DNA from: a virus | Length of the DNA stretch: 30,635 bases | Reading direction: 5' to 3' (one strand) | IMG/VR virus record: IMGVR_UViG_3300022169_000015 | Span: 1 to 30,635 of that record | Part shown: piece after piece, positions 2,754 to 15,646 of the stretch | Position numbering within the stretch: position 1 is the stretch's first letter | Layout of the letters: every line of letters starts with the position of its first letter | Made by a program: the position numbers and the translations under genes | The notes under the pieces: model-generated | Databases searched by the model: none | What the model was told of the DNA's origin: nothing | What the model saw: the letters and a program-made list of their open reading frames with translations, nothing else

Positions 2754-2907
2754 CTTTTTCTTTTTTAAGATTTATCCACTTGTGAAGCGTGTATCCAATG
2801 GTTACAAAAAGCAAGGTAATTTTTAACCAAGTTTCTATATGTGCGAATGTTGTAAACCCGACAACCCCAAAGCTCATTGCGTACATTTTAATATCTGATA
2901 TACTCAT
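2746..2907 (-). CDS. 53-residue membrane protein, candidate holin
   Basis: This short gene begins at the ATG 2907-2905, which shares its first base with the TAA of the giant gene (TAATG), and ends at TAG 2748-2746, overlapping the next start by 8 bases. The protein is MSISDIKMYAMSFGVVGF..., with a first weakly hydrophobic stretch (residues 8-23), a clear membrane segment around residues 28-44 (WLKITLLFVTIGYTLHKW) and a charged basic/acidic end (NLKKEKDE). Its size, hydrophobic segments, charged C-terminus and place just ahead of the endolysin cluster fit a holin that releases or triggers the amidase. It could instead be another small inner-membrane protein. The tight couplings on both sides argue that it is real. 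Confidence 0.7.
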   Translation of the reverse strand: MSISDIKMYAMSFGVVGFTTFAHIETWLKITLLFVTIGYTLHKWINLKKEKDE

Positions 2908-5900
2908 TATTTATTTTTTGGCATTAGTTCTAATATTTTTTCAACTCTGTTTTTTTCGTATTTTAAAGCTCGTATTTCTTTTTTAGATAGTCCAAACTTA
3001 AGTAATGTTTTTACTTGATCAGGTTTGTTTTCATCTTTAATAGAATCAAACTGTCTTCTAAGTCTAGCTTCTGCACTTACGGTTTTTACTTTAGGCTTTG
3101 GAGTTGGTTTAGGTTTTGCAACTGGTGTGGGTTTAGTTTCTTCTTTTATCTCTTCTTTAACTTCAGCTTCTTTTTTAGGTTCTGCTTCTGCGTTTTGTAA
3201 TTCTATTATCTTTTCAACTCTAGCTTGTTCTTTGCCTAAAGCTTTTATTTCTTTTTTGGACAAACCTAAATCTAATAGCATATCAACTTGCTCTTTAGTT
3301 TTAGTTAATTTTTTCATGTCATCAATTTCTTTGACTTTCTCTTCTTCAGCAGTTAAAACTTTAGCTGCATCAAAACCTCCGTAATAACCAAGACCTAGAT
3401 CCCAAGTAGACCAACCAAGACCTAAAGCAACTTTCTGCCAAAGTGCAGACTGCTCGTTGACCATGCCTCTTACGTTGTTTATTTTCTTTGCTACTCTATC
3501 AAGAGGTACATTAGTAAGACCAGTTGTTATCTGAGCACCTGCTAAATAAGCTGGGTTGTCTAAGCTAAAACCTTTCTCTTTCATATCTTCCATATTCCAG
3601 CTAAAGCTTCTAAGACCACCTCTTATTTTGTTAATCTTAGATCCAAGCGGTGGAGAGAAGTTTAATAAGTCAAACACAGCTTCTTCATATTCAGGGCCTT
3701 TCTTAGCGTATTGCTCGCCTAACTCCATTAAAGCACTTTTAAGTGCTAAAACAGCTGCGCCGCCAATACCTAATCCTTTAAGCTGCGAATCAATCATACC
3801 GTTTGCTACTCTAGAGATCTTTTCATTTTTCTTATCATCTTTCTCTTCGTCGTCTTCACCAAACCCTAAAGCAAACACTGCTTGCTGCAAAGAGTTAAAT
3901 ATTAAATTCTGAATAGCACCGTAGTAAACTATCTTAGATACGTTTGTTCTCCAGTCTCCACGACCATTTATAAGATCTTGAGCAGCTCTTTTTTGTATAC
4001 GAGCATATTGCATCGGCGTATTTGCCCAAGCTAATATAACACGACCAGCAGCTGACGCTTGCTGCATGCTAATTCTATTTGGATTACTAGATTGTTGACT
4101 TTCTTCTGCTATCTGTCTAAAATCTTCAAAAGCTTGTGCTTCTGCCGCTTTTTGATCCATGCCTTTAGCTACTAAAGATTTTACTCTGTTTCTATAAAAA
4201 GTAGAACCACCAGCGGCAATAGCAAAGCTATCCGCAAATCTAGTCATTACAAAACCTTTACTAAGTAAAAACGCTATAGCTGCTTTTACCTTATTACCTG
4301 AATCTCTTACGGCATCTGCAATTTCAGATTCACTTACGTTAATCTTAAGACCGTTTCTACGTTCAACTAAGTAGTCGGAATTCATAAGGGTCATAAAGTC
4401 AGACCAGAATTGTTTTTGATTTGCAAAAGCTGCACCTGCTTTCGCTATATTATTATCACCCCAGTTTATGAAGTTTACCATAGAGAGAGTCTGTAATAAC
4501 GCAGAACGTGTATTAAGGAACATTACAGCACCAACAGAGTTGTTTAACCAATCTAGTATGCCGTCTGTGGCTCTATTACCTCCTGGTGGTCTGTTACTAC
4601 CTGACTTCATTCTACGAAGAGAATCTTCCATAGCTTCACGCCATCTAGTTCCGTACGCAGCCTCCATTTTGTTCATGTTGTCTTCAGAGAATATAATGTC
4701 TACATTCTCTCTCCACTCTTGCTGGTATTCAGCTCGGTTAACTTTATTAATATCATTTATGATATCACTAGTGATATTACCACCTAGCCAGTCTTTACCT
4801 GGTTTTGGATAAGGTTTACCTTTTTGTATTTTAATCAACTCATTAGCGAACACTCTAAGCTCAGGATCGTTCTGTACAAAGTCATTTAACTCTTTAATAT
4901 CTTTCTTAGAAAGTCCTGGAATTTCCATGCCTTGAGCTGTCCATATAGCTGTTCGTACAGCGTGAGAATATGTAAATCCTCCGATACCTGTTGGTACGCT
5001 TAAGCTCGTAGGTAGAGTTTTTAATTCCGTCTTTAAAGCTTTAAAATCATTAGCTGCAGATATCTTAGCTTGTGTTACAGCTGACTCAGCTCTGTCATAA
5101 GGATCTAGCAAGTTAGCTTTTAGAAATGCCATTTGAGCATCACCTTTCTTACCTTTACCTAGCATCTTATATAGTAGACCTGTAAAATCTTCAGCAGAAG
5201 GTGGAATAAAGAAATTAAACCTACCTTTATTAGCACCAACTGTTTTAGCTCTAGCCGCAGAATATTGTTTATAAGTTTCAATACCAGACGAATCTTCAAT
5301 CATATCATTCACGACAGTATCAAAAGTTGTTCTCTTACTAGCTTTTGCTAATTGAACTTTAGACTTAACATCGATTTGACTAAGCACGTCTTTAACTGCT
5401 TTAACGTTACCTGTGTGATCGTCGGCAAAATAAAAGTCATTATAACCTTCAGCTGCTTTACCCATAATCCACCCAGCTTTAGCCTGTGGAGTACCATCGC
5501 CTAATCCAGTAATATTAGCGAGTGGAATATCAAGTCCCATGCTAGCTAAAAATTCTTTAATTGGTCCAGCTGCGTTAGCGGGTCTTGCCGTTAAAACAAA
5601 TACGTCTTTAGTTCCACGTTTATCCGCTATGATTTTAGCTACATCTAACAGTGGTCCTTTACTTCCTTGCATTACTTTACTAAACTCAGAGAAATCCCAT
5701 TGAGCTCCTTCAGCCTCCATGTTACCTGCTTCTTTAGCAAATGTAGCAGCATCGATAGCTCCAGTAGTTCCATCAGGCATTGTGTATAACACATTACTTT
5801 TAGTTCTAGCCAATGTGTCATCAAAATCAAACACTCTAATCTTCTTGACAGGTTGATCTAGTTTTCTACCATTTGCTAAAGCTTTGTCAGTTTTTTCTAA

Positions 5901-8900
5901 AGCGTTTATAGCTTTTTGCACAGTTATAGGCTCGCTATACTCTATAGCATCAGGAATTAAATCGCTGTCACGTTTTGAAGCCATTGACTTTCCTGGTACC
6001 AAAGGTAGAGATGCTTTTATTTCACTCGCAACATCTAAGTCTGGATTTTTTAAACCCTCTAATATAGCCTCGTTTTGAATACTAGAAGCTTGTACCTTTT
6101 CATTAACATTATACTTATTGTATACTTTTAGATCAATACCAAATCCGCTTTCTTCAGCTATAGTTTTACCTGTTAAGGGGTTTACTAAGGTTTGTAGATC
6201 TATCCCAGCCGCAGCTAGTCTAGATATTGGATTGTCAAAAACACTTTGACCTTCAACTAATGTTGAATCTAACTTAGCCATGTCTAACTGATCGTCATTC
6301 TTTTTAGACAACTGCGTTTGATAATAGTTTTCTTTTATAGCGCTCATCACAGTGGAAGCAGCGTTATTTTTAATAGCTAACATTATACTAGCGCCTACTA
6401 CAGAAGCTGGAGGATTGTGCTCTTCTCTATATTTATTACCTTCTTTTTGGGTTTTCTTTGCTCCTTCTCTTGTAGCGTATTCCATCAACGTAGACTTATA
6501 CTTAAAAGGTGCTGCTATTTTTATTAGTCCTTCGGTGGCTTGGTAGCTTTGTATTATTATAGCACCTGCTATGTCTAAAGACATACCTCTTGCAACAGCG
6601 TCTGTTAGGTTTTTTACAACATGATCAAGTACTTCCATGTTTATTTTAGACTGAGCAATCCCTTCTGCTGTAAAACCTTTTTTAACAGTGTTTCTTTTAG
6701 CAGGTTTTCCTTCATATTTAGAAGCAGATTCTATTAGCGTTACATAAGCGGGATCTGTTTTTCCATAATATAACCTAGAAGGTTTAGCAACCCAGTTTTT
6801 TATTTTACCGCCAAGCTTGCCTTGATCACTTTTTGTTTCGTAAAACTTACCATCAGTGGTTTTAACGAATTGAATTGGATTTTTTAATCCAGCTCTTTTA
6901 GAGTCAGCAACAGTGTTATACATTTTTCCATTAGCTGAGTTGCTGTAGAAGGTTTGTCTACCTCCACTACCCATCATACCAGCTTCTATAGAAGCAGTAT
7001 CTAGACCGAATTCCGTAACAGCTTTTTGCATGTCGTCTTGCAACGATTTTCTAGTTTTTTCATTTATAGGTGGAGAAGAAAAACCTAGCTCTCTAGCTAA
7101 TTGAGTCTTACTTCTTAAACTAGCGACTTCTTTAAATGCGTTTTTAAGCTTAGAAGACATTTCAGCTTCCGTAGTTATACGTTTGCTAGCCATAGATTTA
7201 TTCTTGCCGGCCGCAACATCTTGCTTTACTTCTAAACTTAGATCAGTATCAGATCTTACAATTTCATTTGTAACTAATTTACCGTACAAGCTAGCAATAC
7301 CTTTTAAAGCCTGAGCTTGTGGTGATCTAGCGTCAAATCCTTCAGCTTTTTTGCCTTCAACAATACCAAACGCTTCTAAGAAATCAGCTTTACTAATTCC
7401 CTTGTTTAATTTAAACGGAGCAAGTCCAGCGCCTTTGCCTAATCTAGCTTGTTTAGTATAAAAAGCATTAAGTAGTCCTTTTGGAACTCCAGTAGATGTA
7501 CCTAAGAGCTTCTCTGTCGCAGCTTCTACTACTGCCCCTTCTGGTAATATCTTTAATAATTTATCTGCGTTCTTGTTGACAAACTGCTGAATAGCAGTTG
7601 CGTCACCTTTTGATAGGTTAGCTGTAGCTACTGTAAGTTTTTTAACTGGTATACCAATTTCAGCTGCAATAATTTCAGGAGCTAAGTCGCCAAGTTTTTT
7701 AAATGTTAGATTTTTAGGATCGATGCCTTCAATCTTAGCTTGTACTTGTTCTTTGATTTTACCTACAGCGTCGTTGGATATTAGTGAGCTAGGCTTTATT
7801 TTTCTAGTAGTAGGTTTTGCAGCAACTTCAGTTTCAACCTCCTCAGCCATTACACCTGTAGCTTCTGTAACGTCTACAGTAAACTCTTCACCTAAAATTC
7901 TTTGAGAAGCTTCAATAGCTCTAGCTGGTAAAAACTTGTTTATATAAGCAGCTAGTGGCACGCCTGATTCTGGCTTGTATTCTTTTATTAAATCAAATAT
8001 ACCACGTTTACCTGTTTCAATTTCGTCTGTTAAAAGTTGACGATCAAAGTTAGGTGCTTCACTTCTTTTTTCTACTATTCTACTTACTATAGGCTTAAAT
8101 TGTTCTATAATGTCAAAAGCACCATCCACACCTTGAGCTTCGAATATTTCTTGAACTTTGGTAGAAGCTTCAGCGCCTGTATCTCTCTTGCTAGCTTTAG
8201 CTGAGCCATCTGAGTCTTTATTTTCAGTTTGTTTGTTTAACTCTAAGTCTATATTACTAACAAGATTTTTTTCTGCTGAAATAATCAATTCAGTTCCCGC
8301 CTCTAGGTCTTGACCTCCTGTCTTGTTTAACTGCTTAAGCTGCTTTAGCGTTATGTCTGGGAATTTTTCAGCTACATCTTCTATAGTTTCTCCCTCTTGA
8401 ACTACGTAGGTGTTATTGACTTCTAAATCATCATCAACAAGCGCTCCCTTAGCTCCTTCTAATCTTACCTTGTTTTCAGCTGCTGACCAGCCTTTACCAG
8501 CGTCAGTAGACTTATTGTAAGCTACTATAAAATCAAAAACATCTTTTCCAGTGTCAAATCTTAAATTTAAAGGTTGTTTGTTTGTTGGGTTTTTTAAGAA
8601 GTTCGATATTTTTTTACCTATGTTTTTATACCAAGCCTCTTGCTTTGGGTTGTATTGAATATCGCCGCTAGAAAGGTATTCACTCATTAAAGGTATAACT
8701 TCAGACCAAGTGTCTTCTGCTGAATACTTTGAGTCATTAACGTATGACTGAAATTTGCTTAAAAACTTAGCTCCTCCGCTTATTTCTTTGTTGTTAAGAA
8801 ACTCTAGCATTAAAGATTTACCAAACTTAATAGCAAGTTCTGGATTTCCTTTAAGAGCTTGCTCCCAAAAAGGATGCAATGTTTCATGTTTACCAGTCGT

Positions 8901-11882
8901 ATAAACGTTGTCTTCTGCAGACACTTGATCGTTTATCAATATAACTTTCTTTGTCACGCCATCTTCTTCAAATTCTAAAGATTGACCATAACCTACGTCT
9001 TCAATAACTTTTCCTCCTTTAGCTATAATTTCTGCTTTTTTAGCGTCTATTTCTTCTTGACTACCAAAAGGAAGGAACTCAACGTCCATATCGGCAGCTT
9101 TAGCTTTTGATCCTTTTCTGGAAATAGATTTTTCAAGTTCTGGTTTTACTATTTCAGCCAGAGCCTCTCTTTTGTTTTCTATTTTTATATCAATATTTTC
9201 ATGGAAAGCTTCATCTATAGTTTTTTTCCTGTTTTGAAGATCTGCAATTTCTTGAAGTATTATAGCTGATTCAAGTTGAGTTTCTGAACTAACGCTTGAA
9301 GGTATGCCGGACATTTGATTGTTTACAGCTTTAATTTGAAACATAACATCTGAAACCTGCTCAGTGGTAGCCTCTCCATCTATAACCATCTTGTTTAATA
9401 AGTCTTTTGTTCCAGCTACATCTTTACTTAGTATGTATAAGTTTTGTAATTGCTGCTGTGCATTAGGTTTAAAACCTGGTAAGTTTAAATTAGAAAATGC
9501 AGCACCCGCTCCAAAAGAAAGTATGCCAGTGCTAATAAAGTCCTGTCTAGTAAATGTTTCGTCTAATATATTAGCGCCTGCTTTTTTGTTTATAAAAGCG
9601 TTTAAGCCTAAAGTCTCAAGCCCTGTTTGCAATTCTTCTTGAACAAACTCTTGACCGCCAGCTCCTGCTGTTTTAATAGCACCCTGTTTAGTGGGTTTTA
9701 ATTTTTTAAAATTATCTATAATTATTTTAGTAAATTCAGATTTACCTCCTTTTTTATAACCACGAACAGCTTGGTTTACAGCGTTATTAACGTTAGCAGC
9801 TTTGTTAAAAGCTTTCATGTATTGAGATGTAGGAGCAAACAAACTAGTTGTACCGTAAAGAATCCCACCTAATCTACCAGCTGTTTCAGACAATTCTGAA
9901 GCTTCGTCAACATTTACTCCAGCATTTATTAGCTGGCTATACGTGTCTTTTTTTGTGGAAACATAACCGCTCGCTGTGTAGTAAGTTAAAGCGTCAAATG
10001 AAGTTTTTGGCATTTTTAAAGCCGTTGCTAATTTACCTACTTTGCTTACTTTTGTAAATTTACCTAAACCATAAACAGAAGCTATATCAAACATCATAGT
10101 GCCACCCGTTGCAGCAAACTGCTCAGTAGTTCCTGCGCTGCTAAAAGAAGTTCCTCTTTTTTTACTAGTATTTAAAGCTTTGCTTATATCAGCATACTCT
10201 TCTTCTGTTACGCTACCTAGTGTTGTTTGATTAGTGGTGTCGTATATATTTCCATCTTCATCTTTTATGTATGTAATACCATCAACCTCAGCTTCAACCC
10301 CTTCTACGTAACCATATCTTACGTCTGTAGCCGATCTTAATAAATCTCTTTCTGAATTTAAATTTCTAGCTACACCTATATCATAACCTAATAAAGACCT
10401 CAACTCTAAGGCTTGATCTTCAGCTTGACCTATAAGTCCTTGAAAACCTTTTCTAGTACTATCAAAAAGCAAGCCTTCAGCAGTTCCTTGCGCTTTTATA
10501 GCAGCTCTTTTTTCGTCTCCAGCTGCAATTGCTTGTTTTTCAGCTGTAACTAGTTCTGGAAAAAGATTATCTCTGTAACCTTTGAATTTTTTTAAATCAA
10601 AAGGAGCAAAAGTAGATTGACCATATTCTTTTTTAAAATACTTTTTAGCTTTCAATATAGCTTCGTCTAAACTTTTAACGTCTTTAAATTTAGTTTTATT
10701 TTTGCTTATATAGCTTAAGTAAAGCTTATTATTGTATCTGTCAGTTTGATCAGCTACATATAAATTTAAGTAATTGTCTAAATCTCTTTGTCTGTTAATT
10801 TCTAGTCTAGAGTAGTCTTCAGGACTTAGATCATACGTACCTAGACTACCGTAAGAATCTTTAAAGTAATTATTTGTATAATCTCTTGTATAGCCTTTTT
10901 CGTTCATAAAGCCTAAGAAGTCATCAACATTAAACCCTGTATTTAATTTTTTTAAATCAGATAGCAAATAGTCTTCTTCAACACGTCTAACGCCTTGTCC
11001 TGGCTCATTTATTTCTAATTCACCTTCATACTCTAAACCTTTAAACTCTTCGTAGTTGTTTTCGACGTTATAAGCCTCTTTTATAACAATGTTTTTGATT
11101 TTTCTATTAATATCTAAATCAGAAACACCTATAGCTATTATAAACTCTTCGTTTTGTTTATTTTTTTTAGACTCTTCTATGGTTTTAAAAGGCTTTGAAG
11201 GGTCTTCTTCTAAAGACCTAGGAGATAAAGCCTTGTCTTCTTCTGTTATATCTAAAGAATTACCTATAGTAAAGTCTTTTTCTTTTCTTCTGGCTTCTTC
11301 TATTAAAACTTTTTGCTCTTCATTTAAATGATTAAAAACGTCTGCAACGTAAAATTTTTGAGTTTCGTTTTTTAAAGGAATAAACTTTTCGTCATTTTTC
11401 TTTTTAGTGAAATAATTTATACTTCCAGTTTTATTATCAAAGTCAAACTTGTAATCCCATCCATCTCCCGGAGAGTAAATTTCTTTAGGTTTTGAGACTT
11501 CAGAATATTTTTCTGGCAACTTGTAAGTAGGAGATAATCCCACTTGTTGAAAAAAAGTTTTATCTGGATCAGCTAGCAAAGAAGGTGATGACTCGTTTCT
11601 AGTTGCGTTAGAAAGTGTTGTTTTTCTTATATCAGAAAAATCGAACTTCAGCTTTGAATCTTCCAATTTTGATTCTATAGACTTTTCCGTGGACACTCGC
11701 TCTTCTGTCGGTGCTACAGCCGCATCTGTTTCCGCAGCACCGTTTGTCTTTACTTCTTCAACAGGAGTTTCAACTACTTCTTGCTGACCCCATTTGTTTT
11801 CTATTTTCCATTGTCTAATAAGCTCGGCTTTATTAGGATTTGAATCTGGAATAGATGCTGTGTATTCTTGTAATTCGTTCAT
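2907..11882 (-). CDS. Giant multidomain (polyvalent-type) virion/ejection protein, 2991 aa
   Basis: One unbroken gene of 9 kb. Domains seen by eye, by residue: 1-110 acidic and proline-rich. 570-800 Gly/Ala-rich, with hydrophobic patches. 999-1003 HETLH, a zinc-peptidase motif, with E1061 or E1068 as possible third ligand. About 1158-1205 LysM (YVVQEGETIEDVA). About 1256-1330 resembling sigma-70 region 2 (DLIKEYKPESGVPLAAYINK). 2017-2180 a HAD phosphatase-type domain with D2019/D2021, T2098, K2135 and D2154/D2155. About 2215-2800 a large conserved end (FFIPPSAEDF, then SVGAVMFLNTRSALLQT). Last, two copies of a 37-residue repeat. ASKR occurs at 1230, 1565, 1968 and 2181. The layout fits the large polyvalent proteins of phages, thought to enter the host with the DNA. 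The order of domains and its place after the tail genes support an ejected virion protein; presence in particles is inferred. Confidence 0.85.
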   Translation of the reverse strand: MNELQEYTASIPDSNPNKAELIRQWKIENKWGQQEVVETPVEEVKTNGAAETDAAVAPTEERVSTEKSIESKLEDSKLKFDFSDIRKTTLSNATRNESSPSLLADPDKTFFQQVGLSPTYKLPEKYSEVSKPKEIYSPGDGWDYKFDFDNKTGSINYFTKKKNDEKFIPLKNETQKFYVADVFNHLNEEQKVLIEEARRKEKDFTIGNSLDITEEDKALSPRSLEEDPSKPFKTIEESKKNKQNEEFIIAIGVSDLDINRKIKNIVIKEAYNVENNYEEFKGLEYEGELEINEPGQGVRRVEEDYLLSDLKKLNTGFNVDDFLGFMNEKGYTRDYTNNYFKDSYGSLGTYDLSPEDYSRLEINRQRDLDNYLNLYVADQTDRYNNKLYLSYISKNKTKFKDVKSLDEAILKAKKYFKKEYGQSTFAPFDLKKFKGYRDNLFPELVTAEKQAIAAGDEKRAAIKAQGTAEGLLFDSTRKGFQGLIGQAEDQALELRSLLGYDIGVARNLNSERDLLRSATDVRYGYVEGVEAEVDGITYIKDEDGNIYDTTNQTTLGSVTEEEYADISKALNTSKKRGTSFSSAGTTEQFAATGGTMMFDIASVYGLGKFTKVSKVGKLATALKMPKTSFDALTYYTASGYVSTKKDTYSQLINAGVNVDEASELSETAGRLGGILYGTTSLFAPTSQYMKAFNKAANVNNAVNQAVRGYKKGGKSEFTKIIIDNFKKLKPTKQGAIKTAGAGGQEFVQEELQTGLETLGLNAFINKKAGANILDETFTRQDFISTGILSFGAGAAFSNLNLPGFKPNAQQQLQNLYILSKDVAGTKDLLNKMVIDGEATTEQVSDVMFQIKAVNNQMSGIPSSVSSETQLESAIILQEIADLQNRKKTIDEAFHENIDIKIENKREALAEIVKPELEKSISRKGSKAKAADMDVEFLPFGSQEEIDAKKAEIIAKGGKVIEDVGYGQSLEFEEDGVTKKVILINDQVSAEDNVYTTGKHETLHPFWEQALKGNPELAIKFGKSLMLEFLNNKEISGGAKFLSKFQSYVNDSKYSAEDTWSEVIPLMSEYLSSGDIQYNPKQEAWYKNIGKKISNFLKNPTNKQPLNLRFDTGKDVFDFIVAYNKSTDAGKGWSAAENKVRLEGAKGALVDDDLEVNNTYVVQEGETIEDVAEKFPDITLKQLKQLNKTGGQDLEAGTELIISAEKNLVSNIDLELNKQTENKDSDGSAKASKRDTGAEASTKVQEIFEAQGVDGAFDIIEQFKPIVSRIVEKRSEAPNFDRQLLTDEIETGKRGIFDLIKEYKPESGVPLAAYINKFLPARAIEASQRILGEEFTVDVTEATGVMAEEVETEVAAKPTTRKIKPSSLISNDAVGKIKEQVQAKIEGIDPKNLTFKKLGDLAPEIIAAEIGIPVKKLTVATANLSKGDATAIQQFVNKNADKLLKILPEGAVVEAATEKLLGTSTGVPKGLLNAFYTKQARLGKGAGLAPFKLNKGISKADFLEAFGIVEGKKAEGFDARSPQAQALKGIASLYGKLVTNEIVRSDTDLSLEVKQDVAAGKNKSMASKRITTEAEMSSKLKNAFKEVASLRSKTQLARELGFSSPPINEKTRKSLQDDMQKAVTEFGLDTASIEAGMMGSGGRQTFYSNSANGKMYNTVADSKRAGLKNPIQFVKTTDGKFYETKSDQGKLGGKIKNWVAKPSRLYYGKTDPAYVTLIESASKYEGKPAKRNTVKKGFTAEGIAQSKINMEVLDHVVKNLTDAVARGMSLDIAGAIIIQSYQATEGLIKIAAPFKYKSTLMEYATREGAKKTQKEGNKYREEHNPPASVVGASIMLAIKNNAASTVMSAIKENYYQTQLSKKNDDQLDMAKLDSTLVEGQSVFDNPISRLAAAGIDLQTLVNPLTGKTIAEESGFGIDLKVYNKYNVNEKVQASSIQNEAILEGLKNPDLDVASEIKASLPLVPGKSMASKRDSDLIPDAIEYSEPITVQKAINALEKTDKALANGRKLDQPVKKIRVFDFDDTLARTKSNVLYTMPDGTTGAIDAATFAKEAGNMEAEGAQWDFSEFSKVMQGSKGPLLDVAKIIADKRGTKDVFVLTARPANAAGPIKEFLASMGLDIPLANITGLGDGTPQAKAGWIMGKAAEGYNDFYFADDHTGNVKAVKDVLSQIDVKSKVQLAKASKRTTFDTVVNDMIEDSSGIETYKQYSAARAKTVGANKGRFNFFIPPSAEDFTGLLYKMLGKGKKGDAQMAFLKANLLDPYDRAESAVTQAKISAANDFKALKTELKTLPTSLSVPTGIGGFTYSHAVRTAIWTAQGMEIPGLSKKDIKELNDFVQNDPELRVFANELIKIQKGKPYPKPGKDWLGGNITSDIINDINKVNRAEYQQEWRENVDIIFSEDNMNKMEAAYGTRWREAMEDSLRRMKSGSNRPPGGNRATDGILDWLNNSVGAVMFLNTRSALLQTLSMVNFINWGDNNIAKAGAAFANQKQFWSDFMTLMNSDYLVERRNGLKINVSESEIADAVRDSGNKVKAAIAFLLSKGFVMTRFADSFAIAAGGSTFYRNRVKSLVAKGMDQKAAEAQAFEDFRQIAEESQQSSNPNRISMQQASAAGRVILAWANTPMQYARIQKRAAQDLINGRGDWRTNVSKIVYYGAIQNLIFNSLQQAVFALGFGEDDEEKDDKKNEKISRVANGMIDSQLKGLGIGGAAVLALKSALMELGEQYAKKGPEYEEAVFDLLNFSPPLGSKINKIRGGLRSFSWNMEDMKEKGFSLDNPAYLAGAQITTGLTNVPLDRVAKKINNVRGMVNEQSALWQKVALGLGWSTWDLGLGYYGGFDAAKVLTAEEEKVKEIDDMKKLTKTKEQVDMLLDLGLSKKEIKALGKEQARVEKIIELQNAEAEPKKEAEVKEEIKEETKPTPVAKPKPTPKPKVKTVSAEARLRRQFDSIKDENKPDQVKTLLKFGLSKKEIRALKYEKNRVEKILELMPKNK
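2922..3032 (-). repeat. Copy 2 of 37-residue C-terminal repeat (giant protein residues 2951-2987)
   Basis: This is the second copy of a protein-level repeat with core FGLSKKEIRAL and RVEKILEL. It matches copy 1 at 21 of 37 positions without gaps and ends four residues before the protein terminus. The bases have diverged more than the residues, so the duplication is old or the repeat is selected at the protein level. Confidence 0.85.
3195..3305 (-). repeat. Copy 1 of 37-residue C-terminal repeat (giant protein residues 2860-2896)
   Basis: This is the first copy, core LGLSKKEIKAL and RVEKIIEL, predicted helical (helix-turn-helix-like hairpin). It is separated from copy 2 by a charged linker rich in Lys, Glu and Pro (KPTPVAKPKPTPKPKV), which would let the two units move independently. 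Confidence 0.85.
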
Positions 11883-13675: not shown

Positions 13676-15646
13676 TTAATATCCATTGTTTGCTGTGTAA
13701 TCTGTGCTCACGCTGAAAAGTTGTTTTTCTCCGCCAGGATTTGTTAAACTATCTGTTGAAATTTTAACCGCAGCGTAATACCCTTTTATTCCAGCTATTT
13801 GATTGCCAAAGTTAACCTCGCCTTCAGACACTCTAGAGTCGTTTACTATTGCCGCTACATATTTGTTTTCTTTTCTATTAAAACCTTGGTAGTAGTTGTT
13901 TATAAAACCTGGATTAGAGGTTCCAAAAACAGTATTGTAATCCGCTCTATTTACGGTTAAGCTAAATCTAAGTAATGTAGCCGCTGCTGTGTTTAAATTT
14001 TGACTAACAGTTAACACTCTTGTTGAGGCTACGTAACTAACTATTGTTGTTCCAAGCGGCACACCTTTACCATAAATAGCAGCTCCAACTGGTACTATTA
14101 CTTGCCCTTGAGTAAGGCCAAATACTCCAGTTAAATTATTTATTGAAATGCTAGTTGTGCCAATTGCCGCTGTTGTAGATACCGCTGTACCTTCTACTAC
14201 TGTGAATTGACCTTCGTAATAACTTTTTATATCAAAGCTTTGATCAAAAACGTCTATCCAAGACTGGGAAGTAGTAGAAAAATTAGTACCAGTATTATCT
14301 GAGGAAATTCCAGCCGTATCTATTTGCCACCCGTTGCTTCCTTCGTATCCTATAGTAAAAAAAGATTTAGATTTAACTGGATTGTCATTAACAACAAAAC
14401 TAACAGAACTAGGATATCCTACTCCATAAAAATCACCTCTACCAACACTTTTTGAATAGTGCTTATACAAACCAGTAGAAGACCCAAAAAATAACTTTGA
14501 ATTATCGTTTAATGTTATAGGTGAAACACTAGTGAGGATGTTTGTGGTTGAATCAAAAGAAGCAACAACGCCAATCAAGGTGTATGGGTACACACATGGA
14601 ACAGCTAAACATGCGCGAATAGATGAACCTGCAATTATGTCACCTACAACAGTACCTGGGGCTAATTGAAATACGGTTTGTGGTCCGCAGCCGCCAGCAC
14701 AACCACTAACTTGTCCAAAAGCAGTTCCACCTGATGTTTTTACTGAATAAAATTCATTTCTTAAACTAAACATTTGATCTGGTTCGTAGTCATAGAAACT
14801 AACCCATCCGTTATACTTGCTATCGTAAGCTAGTGTATAGTAATTATTATTGCTAGAGTTTAAAGTAGGATTTCCTTGCAAAGAAGTTACATACTGTTTA
14901 TTATGAATGTCAAAACCACCTATAACATAACCTTCGCTTATTGAATTATCTATAAGCTCTAAGCTTGTTCTAAAGAAGTTTTTCATTCCATAAGAAGATA
15001 TTTCATTTATACCGCTTCTACTCAACTCAAGTATTGCATTGTTGTTTTTATCAGAAAAGTATTGATTGTAACCGTATTGAGCGAAACTCTCAGGATTCTT
15101 GCTTATACCATATTCACCAGCGAAGGGTTGTAGTACGCCAATCACTAAATTACTAGAAGTAACAGATCCACCGCCTTCTGCTGAATATATAGCATCTTTA
15201 TCAATTAAAGCTCTACTTACTTTTAATTCTTGAAATACATTTAAATTAGAATCAGAAGCATATAGTTTTTGTATAGACCCATTGGCTGGATCTGCTGATT
15301 TAGTTATGTCTTCTCCAATAGAAAAAACATTAGTTTTATTTATACCAGTTCTAGAATTAAAAGGGCCAGAATATATTAATGAATTTCCTAAAAACGAAGC
15401 ATCAGTGTCTTCTTCAACTATATATGCTTTAGCTCCAAAGTCCACAGATGTATTATTATAACCTCCTCTAATCCTAGACTCTTCAATAACCCAATTGTTT
15501 GCGTCATTAGTGTTTGGAATCACTTCATAACCACCTAAATCCTCAGGTATACCTCTAGAACCATTCCATATTGGCATCTCTGAATCATTGTTAGTTTTAT
15601 TCAGGATATATGAGTTAAAATATTTTACTTCTATTACAGCTCCCAT
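13676..15646 (-). CDS. Tail hub/stabilisation-like protein, 656 aa
   Basis: It begins MGAVIEVKYFNSYILNK and contains segments I recognise from flavobacterial podovirus tail proteins. These are WVIEESRIRGGYNNTSVDFG, SLIYSGPFNSRTGIN, ITKSADPANGSIQKLYA, FQELKVSRALIDKDAIYSAE and LELSRSGINEISSYGMKNFF. The repeated strand pattern suggests a beta-propeller-like fold. Two apparent insertions break the family pattern: a Cys-bearing stretch near residues 312-385 (C316, C320 and a later ACLAVPC) and a beta-rich module near 495-562 containing GKGVPLGTTIVSYV. It lies 25 bases downstream of the 1637-residue tail gene, so the two probably act in the same tail complex. It could include receptor-contacting surface in the insertions. 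Confidence 0.8.
   Translation of the reverse strand: MGAVIEVKYFNSYILNKTNNDSEMPIWNGSRGIPEDLGGYEVIPNTNDANNWVIEESRIRGGYNNTSVDFGAKAYIVEEDTDASFLGNSLIYSGPFNSRTGINKTNVFSIGEDITKSADPANGSIQKLYASDSNLNVFQELKVSRALIDKDAIYSAEGGGSVTSSNLVIGVLQPFAGEYGISKNPESFAQYGYNQYFSDKNNNAILELSRSGINEISSYGMKNFFRTSLELIDNSISEGYVIGGFDIHNKQYVTSLQGNPTLNSSNNNYYTLAYDSKYNGWVSFYDYEPDQMFSLRNEFYSVKTSGGTAFGQVSGCAGGCGPQTVFQLAPGTVVGDIIAGSSIRACLAVPCVYPYTLIGVVASFDSTTNILTSVSPITLNDNSKLFFGSSTGLYKHYSKSVGRGDFYGVGYPSSVSFVVNDNPVKSKSFFTIGYEGSNGWQIDTAGISSDNTGTNFSTTSQSWIDVFDQSFDIKSYYEGQFTVVEGTAVSTTAAIGTTSISINNLTGVFGLTQGQVIVPVGAAIYGKGVPLGTTIVSYVASTRVLTVSQNLNTAAATLLRFSLTVNRADYNTVFGTSNPGFINNYYQGFNRKENKYVAAIVNDSRVSEGEVNFGNQIAGIKGYYAAVKISTDSLTNPGGEKQLFSVSTDYTANNGY

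Follow-up and report, generated by a model that had tools for sequence, protein, structure and literature searches.

The window analysed here, an IMG/VR fragment of 30.6 kb (30,635 nucleotides; record IMGVR_UViG_3300022169_000015), spans a virion module. The module contains genes for terminase, portal, presumed scaffold, capsid, tail proteins, a muzzle-like protein, a small protein weakly similar to T7 gp14, a 366-aa protein and, sitting among these virion genes, a giant protein encoded on the minus strand. Small genes, including an amidase gene, come after the giant gene. Several unrelated domains are combined in the giant chain, namely LysM, a HAD/polynucleotide-kinase-phosphatase-like module, a domain with an HExxH motif, and two more swappable modules. 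The word ASKR recurs four times in this protein, at module borders, and we consider the protein a candidate cargo polyprotein whose cleavage would take place at these words, probably through its own HExxH domain. The features of the locus are as follows.

2907..11882, minus strand: giant virion-module protein, cargo polyprotein candidate, 2991 aa (open reading frame; 77 distinct IMG/VR relatives)
9219..11882, minus strand: variable N-terminal part, residues 1-888, without border words
8436..9218, minus strand: zincin-like metallopeptidase domain, residues 889-1149 (AlphaFold2 pLDDT 85; invariant H, E, H and E; fold matches)
8874..8888, minus strand: HETLH active-site motif, residues 999-1003 (invariant alignment columns)
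8700..8702, minus strand: predicted third zinc ligand Glu1061 (fourth invariant column of the peptidase-domain alignment)
8280..8408, minus strand: LysM domain, residues 1159-1201 (Pfam PF01476, E 1.2e-8)
8184..8195, minus strand: border word 1, AKASKR, with ASKR at residues 1230-1233 (in relatives KESKK/KESKL/KESKD)
7191..8183, minus strand: module 2, residues 1234-1564, N-terminus weakly sigma-like (swappable unit ending at the word)
7179..7190, minus strand: border word 2, KSMASKR, with ASKR at residues 1565-1568 (low-confidence linker in the model)
5982..7178, minus strand: module 3, residues 1569-1967, with invariant REEHNPPAS (swappable; no recognised fold)
5970..5981, minus strand: border word 3, KSMASKR, with ASKR at residues 1968-1971 (Ser codon TCN)
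5343..5969, minus strand: HAD/polynucleotide-kinase-phosphatase-like module, residues 1972-2180 (PHROG 415, E 5e-5; invariant DFDDTLA)
5331..5342, minus strand: border word 4, AKASKR, with ASKR at residues 2181-2184 (A/F/E-S-K or a variant in 76/78 giants)
2910..5330, minus strand: constant C-terminal core, residues 2185-2991 (identity 60-90% across most of it; no further words)

The four ASKR copies start at residues 1230, 1565, 1968 and 2181 (window positions 8195-8184, 7190-7179, 5981-5970 and 5342-5331) and are preceded by AK, KSM, KSM and AK, respectively, exactly as the original prediction had it. Its reading of the Ser-Lys-Arg codons, different in each copy (AGC AAG AGA, AGC AAA CGT, TCA AAA CGT and AGT AAG AGA), is also correct. 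ASKR is found nowhere else in all six frames of the window. The copies were said to lie between LysM and a sigma-like part, in the middle of the protein, just before the HAD domain and just after it. These borders stand, but the sigma-like label is weak: the sigma factors RpoS and FliA match the N-terminal part of module 2 at E 0.04-0.3 (sigma region 2-like). An injected sigma-like domain in this module would be interesting, if true.

From composition, 0.066 copies of ASKR are expected, and at least three copies were seen in 0 of 3000 shuffles of the giant. On the other hand, some tetrapeptide reached four or more copies in 235 of the 3000 shuffles (7.8%), and LSKK is likewise present four times in the giant. 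Judged post hoc and within this one protein, the repeat does not reach significance and is suggestive at best. Its significance comes from comparison with the 77 relatives.

Border words in the related proteins

In two scans of viral contigs 95 loci were collected, which represent 78 distinct giants, the window's own included. Identity to the window giant is 60-90% across most of the C-terminal core, presumably the ejection or packaging part, and alternates between ~15% and ~90% in the middle, where the switches coincide with the ASKR sites. Module 2 of the window is present in ten relatives at ~75-93% identity and ends there one residue before the border word. In local alignments of 24 proteins with ASK-type words, 61 of 253 breakpoints are at most 15 residues from a word, against 16.0 expected, for word patterns that were picked after data inspection; control words with permuted letters gave 14 breakpoints versus 6 expected. 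In a motif-free count over the 78 giants, ASKR is the tetrapeptide with the most cases of repetition inside a single protein (10 proteins), followed by KFSK.

The words are of several types: ASKR, SKL(E/D), ASKG, ASKK, FSKT and FSLS. ASKR stands at the borders in most close relatives. In L003, L013 and L025 there is no ASKR, and the four borders read SKLES, SKLES, SKLDS and SK(I/L)ET. Borders 2-4 of L014 are ASRG, ASKG and ASKG; L032 has three ASKK, and in L036 every site reads SKK. Farther relatives contain FSK-type words (three KFSK in L054, four in L090), and FSLS is found at two borders in L069, L071 and L072, with L095 of the same type. Overall, a border-4 word of the A/F/E-S-K kind or its variant is present in 76 of the 78 giants.

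The words at different borders change in concert. The border-4 word of a protein recurs 59 times elsewhere in the middle of the same protein, that is, between the peptidase and border 4, compared with a permutation mean of 12.4 and a maximum of 28 in 5000 trials. The only other extra copies are one downstream in the core and two upstream of or in the peptidase core, the latter in 76,537 aa. The concert survives in non-redundant sets of 25-36 dissimilar proteins (14 versus 2.9, p 1e-4). It is also seen in a single swap: module 2 of L067 is 76% identical to that of the window, yet its border is MFSRQ, where the window has MASKR, and MFSRQ fits the FSK-type border 4 of L067 itself. The word goes with the protein rather than with the module.

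Nearly all ASK-type relatives that were examined use TCN for the serine at border 3, with L032 as an exception, and AGY for that at borders 1, 2 and 4. TCN and AGY are more than one substitution apart, so none of the borders arose by recent copying of another at the DNA level, and the proposal of a repeat kept at the protein level, not by recent DNA duplication, is upheld. Similarly, the codons used in the switch from R to L differ by border: CTA, TTA/CTG, CTT and ATA/CTA.

Homologues had been expected to keep the motif at the same borders while the linkers vary, and homologues lacking it there were to count against cleavage sites. The modules indeed vary while a border word stays, but the word is not always ASKR. 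Superficially the prediction fails in several homologues that have no ASKR at any border; yet in these a different word occupies all or most of the borders, and this argues for a common reader more strongly than simple conservation would.

Several other features of the giants were observed. In L035 and L043-L048 an insertion of ~200 aa lies beside the HAD module, between borders 3 and 4, and is perhaps an extra cargo unit. An AAA_33/Zeta-toxin kinase domain, presumably another cargo module, occurs in two of 16 aligned relatives (best E 2.8e-15). The REEHNPPAS motif of module 3 (window 6402-6428, residues 1819-1827) is invariant in all 15 relatives aligned and matched no known family or fold. 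The PHROG 415 match of the HAD/polynucleotide-kinase-like module spans residues 2010-2183. A model of module 3 together with the HAD module produced nothing significant against PDB, with HAD-type phosphatases at the top of the list (E 0.3). Finally, close to the C-terminus (window 2907-3290) a repeat of ~40 residues, GLSKKEI(K/R)AL..E..RVEKI.EL, occurs twice, its GLSKKEI starting at residues 2873 and 2964.

The HExxH domain and its link to the border word

The domain containing HETLH is very divergent. In 73 proteins its sole invariant residues are H, E and H of the motif and a glutamate 58 residues downstream. The AlphaFold2 model (pLDDT 85) has a helix at 54-66, strands at 70-74, 78-85 and 88-96, and the HExxH helix at 108-121 (domain numbering); the downstream glutamate (173) adjoins a helix at 174-183. 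The predicted structure thus agrees with the zincin pattern, that is, an HExxH helix following a three-stranded sheet, and a downstream glutamate near a second helix. A fold search in BFVD matched phage structural proteins, polyvalent-type proteins and virion RNA polymerases (best E 1.9e-3, probability 1.0); among the weaker matches is an entry for an N4-like virion RNA polymerase. No match to the domain was obtained from Pfam in the window or 16 diverse relatives, from solved structures with a sequence profile of the domain, or from PDB with Foldseek at E <=0.001. Partial matches found by VIA-align, for example to the zincin-fold anthrax lethal factor (Z 5.8 over 172 residues), are too low to rely on.

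The border word is predicted better by the HExxH domain than by the flanking HAD module or core. Among pairs with the closest C-terminal cores, the exact border-4 word is the same in 58% if the peptidases are similar (n 78) and in 6% if they are not (n 176). A partial Mantel test over seven regions gave an r of 0.26 for the peptidase (p 0.001), 0.13 for the core (p 0.001), and ~0 for the HAD module and module 2. The peptidase lies ~1,200 residues from border 4, whereas the HAD module and the core adjoin it.

A variant of the motif, EE(I/L)FH, is present in L014 (at residue ~1086), L054, L055 and L090, in the contexts PIEEIFH, PIEELFH and PLEELFH; the second histidine and the region of the downstream glutamate are kept. 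The variant may represent a metal site of unusual type or an inactive enzyme.

Proposed cleavage at the border words and alternative explanations

Words that stand at module borders, change together, and track a putative protease in the same chain are most simply accounted for by a polyprotein with co-evolving sites. On balance we favour a cargo polyprotein of a crAss-related podovirus, probably cut at the words by its own HExxH domain. The packaged chain would consist of an N-terminal part with the zincin-like peptidase and LysM, at least two exchangeable cargo modules, the HAD module, and the constant C-terminal core. A single shared reader would recognise the border words, which would then most likely be sites of protease cleavage, with the HExxH domain of the chain as the foremost protease candidate. 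Cuts at the four words would yield pieces of ~1230, 335, 403, 213 and 809 residues; cutting might occur in the head or after ejection, and the modules would be freed to act in the host. Trypsin cuts at K and R of ASKR, and tryptic ends there would be ambiguous. The words and their borders, concerted change, upkeep at the protein level and statistical link to the peptidase domain are observed here; that the chain is packaged and cut, at which bond and when, and what the modules do, is inferred from sequence. There is about an even chance of a more specific scenario for tailed phages, a true polyprotein of swappable cargo with a private cleavage code, in which the peptidase and the words drift together in each lineage and incoming modules are adapted to the code.

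The repeated sites change together and with the protease-like domain, as expected of a self-processing polyprotein; L034 and the EExxH group depart from this. Structure modelling of residues 1543-2255 places border 2 in a low-confidence stretch and border 4 at the edge of one. Of the suggested linker cleavage sites, the motif repeated at the protein level at module borders is retained, while the cutting itself is a proposal based on comparison. The suggestion that HETLH marks the protease gains from the conserved HExxH domain that tracks the word, but L034 and the four EExxH relatives fit it poorly.

A number of observations speak against this reading. Firstly, its support is comparative throughout, the statistical tests treat related proteins as exchangeable although pairs are not independent, and the breakpoint patterns were chosen post hoc. 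Secondly, L034 has ASKR words, but its peptidase has a relative bit score of 0.75 to those of the FSKT phages L046-L048. Thirdly, the words persist in L014, L054, L055 and L090 although HExxH is replaced by EExxH there; the enzyme must then tolerate the change, or else a different protease is at work. Border 3 was modelled in a moderate-confidence helix, not a clear loop. No clear repeated word was seen in gp18 of the elemo phage (L099:18719-29803, 3694 aa), a cultured phage whose protein has the same peptidase domain (E 3.7e-16). Finally, the virion RNA polymerase of N4, which has such a domain, is packaged intact (PMC5512222, PMC12633501), and thus cutting may occur only after ejection or never.

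Among the alternatives, the best surviving, although unlikely, is that the words are docking motifs for one partner, such as a packaging protein, a portal or core protein, or a non-catalytic peptidase-like receptor, that orders the chain inside the head or threads it through the tail. A shared partner accounts equally well for the concerted change and for the link to the HExxH domain, and the retention of words in the EExxH variants agrees with it, as do the intact N4 polymerase and the short segments that hold the crAss001 cargo protein gp45 at the portal and barrel (PMC10172136). However, invariance of only H, E, H and the downstream glutamate in a highly divergent domain fits catalysis better, and the words lie exactly at the swap points, with none in the constant parts.

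Cutting by a separate phage or host protease, with the HExxH domain as an independent effector, is more doubtful still. L034 and the EExxH proteins break a simple one-enzyme code, and the dibasic pair in ASKR is a target of trypsin-like or omptin-like enzymes. This pair is, however, absent from the L-, G- and F-type words, the HExxH domain predicts the word type, and among the other window proteins scanned no protease was recognised, the lysis amidase aside. Two specific candidates were rejected: host omptin-like cutting at KR as a general reading, as most word types contain no KR, and a prohead-protease substrate of the gp245/T4 gp21 type, which would carry AXE or (L/I)XE as its cleavage motif, as the words are of the (A/F/E)SK type without AXE and no prohead protease was recognised among the scanned window proteins.

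A very improbable, already disfavoured explanation is that the words are conserved hinges, recombination joints without any reader. The clustering of module breakpoints at words and the same serine codon class at orthologous borders are consistent with it, but passive joints would not shift in step at all borders with different codons, nor would they track a domain ~1,200 residues away. Chance repetition in a protein rich in lysine and serine, which the shuffles might suggest for the window giant, is refuted by the same borders and behaviour across 78 proteins, namely by the permutation test of concert and the regional counts of own words.

Virus affinity and comparison with known systems

The muzzle-like protein (window 13676-15646) matches Pfam crAss_MUZ_C (E 3e-8), which ties the marine group to the virion architecture of Crassvirales. 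By terminase, the nearest named phages are an uncultured spring-water podovirus (67%) and then the Flavobacterium elemo phages (46%), so that the closest cultured phages are Elemovirus; for the portal, Cellulophaga crAss-like phages come next at ~33% identity, for example phi38:1 (Pervagoviridae, 33%). Judging by these matches, the virus is a crAss-related podovirus of Bacteroidota. The whole giant and its core had no tblastn match among 50,697 named phages, and thus no cultured relative with published proteomics was found.

Iyer et al. 2017 (PMC5512222) had already anticipated this kind of system, proposing that polyvalent proteins are released autoproteolytically by their zincin domains, either inside the head or once injected. 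The window giant is similar to the polyvalent MPTase proteins of that report, being a large multidomain phage protein with a zincin-type HExxH domain, but it matches none of the named polyvalent domains save LysM and the HAD-like part. The accessible part of that account names no repeated word, concerted change or link between peptidase and linker, and gives no recognition site, whereas here candidate sites are readable from sequence. What appears to be new is a concerted border code that differs between lineages, can be read from sequence, and is linked to the peptidase. The natural candidate pairs of enzyme and word (ASKR, ASKL, ASKG, ASKK, FSKT and FSLS) make the self-processing proposal directly testable. 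As the words mark domain borders, unannotated giant phage proteins can be divided into real units, and the words could help to find injected host-takeover proteins.

The same combination of one chain, an embedded protease, and repeated cleavage sites co-evolving with the protease is known in polyproteins of RNA viruses. There, however, both the protease type and the virus are different, and here the cutting is putative.

The N4-type virion RNA polymerase gp50 is likewise a giant (~3500 aa), ejected, podoviral protein with an HExxH domain (PMC12633501). This domain is C-terminal in gp50, the accessible part of the report describes no repeated border word, and no polymerase was recognised in the window giant. 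The anti-restriction proteins DdrB and DarA of P1 are packaged and reported to be proteolytically processed (PMC5512222). DdrB carries HELGH, but there is no recurring word in DdrB, DarA or DarB. An FSR word, a candidate recurring motif of polyvalent proteins, was not seen in these three proteins and is not repeated in the crAss001 cargo.

Several packaged head proteins are cut at a short repeated motif by the SPN3US prohead protease gp245 (PMC10052503), a likeness to the reading favoured here. However, gp245 is a separate prohead protease that cuts after AXE, mainly for propeptide removal, whereas in the window the candidate enzyme is part of the chain that carries the words, and these separate modules.

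The crAss001 proteins gp45-gp50 belong to a related virion architecture with giant cargo packed in the head and tail (PMC10172136). Ejection by partial unfolding is described there, and cleavage is not mentioned. No recurring border word was found in gp47, gp49 and gp50. The RNA-polymerase-associated cargo protein gp47 (L102) has HEAFH near the C-terminus. The giants of related podoviruses may be even larger than that of the window, as in the elemo phage gp18 (3694 aa) and in L098:741-12320 (3859 aa).

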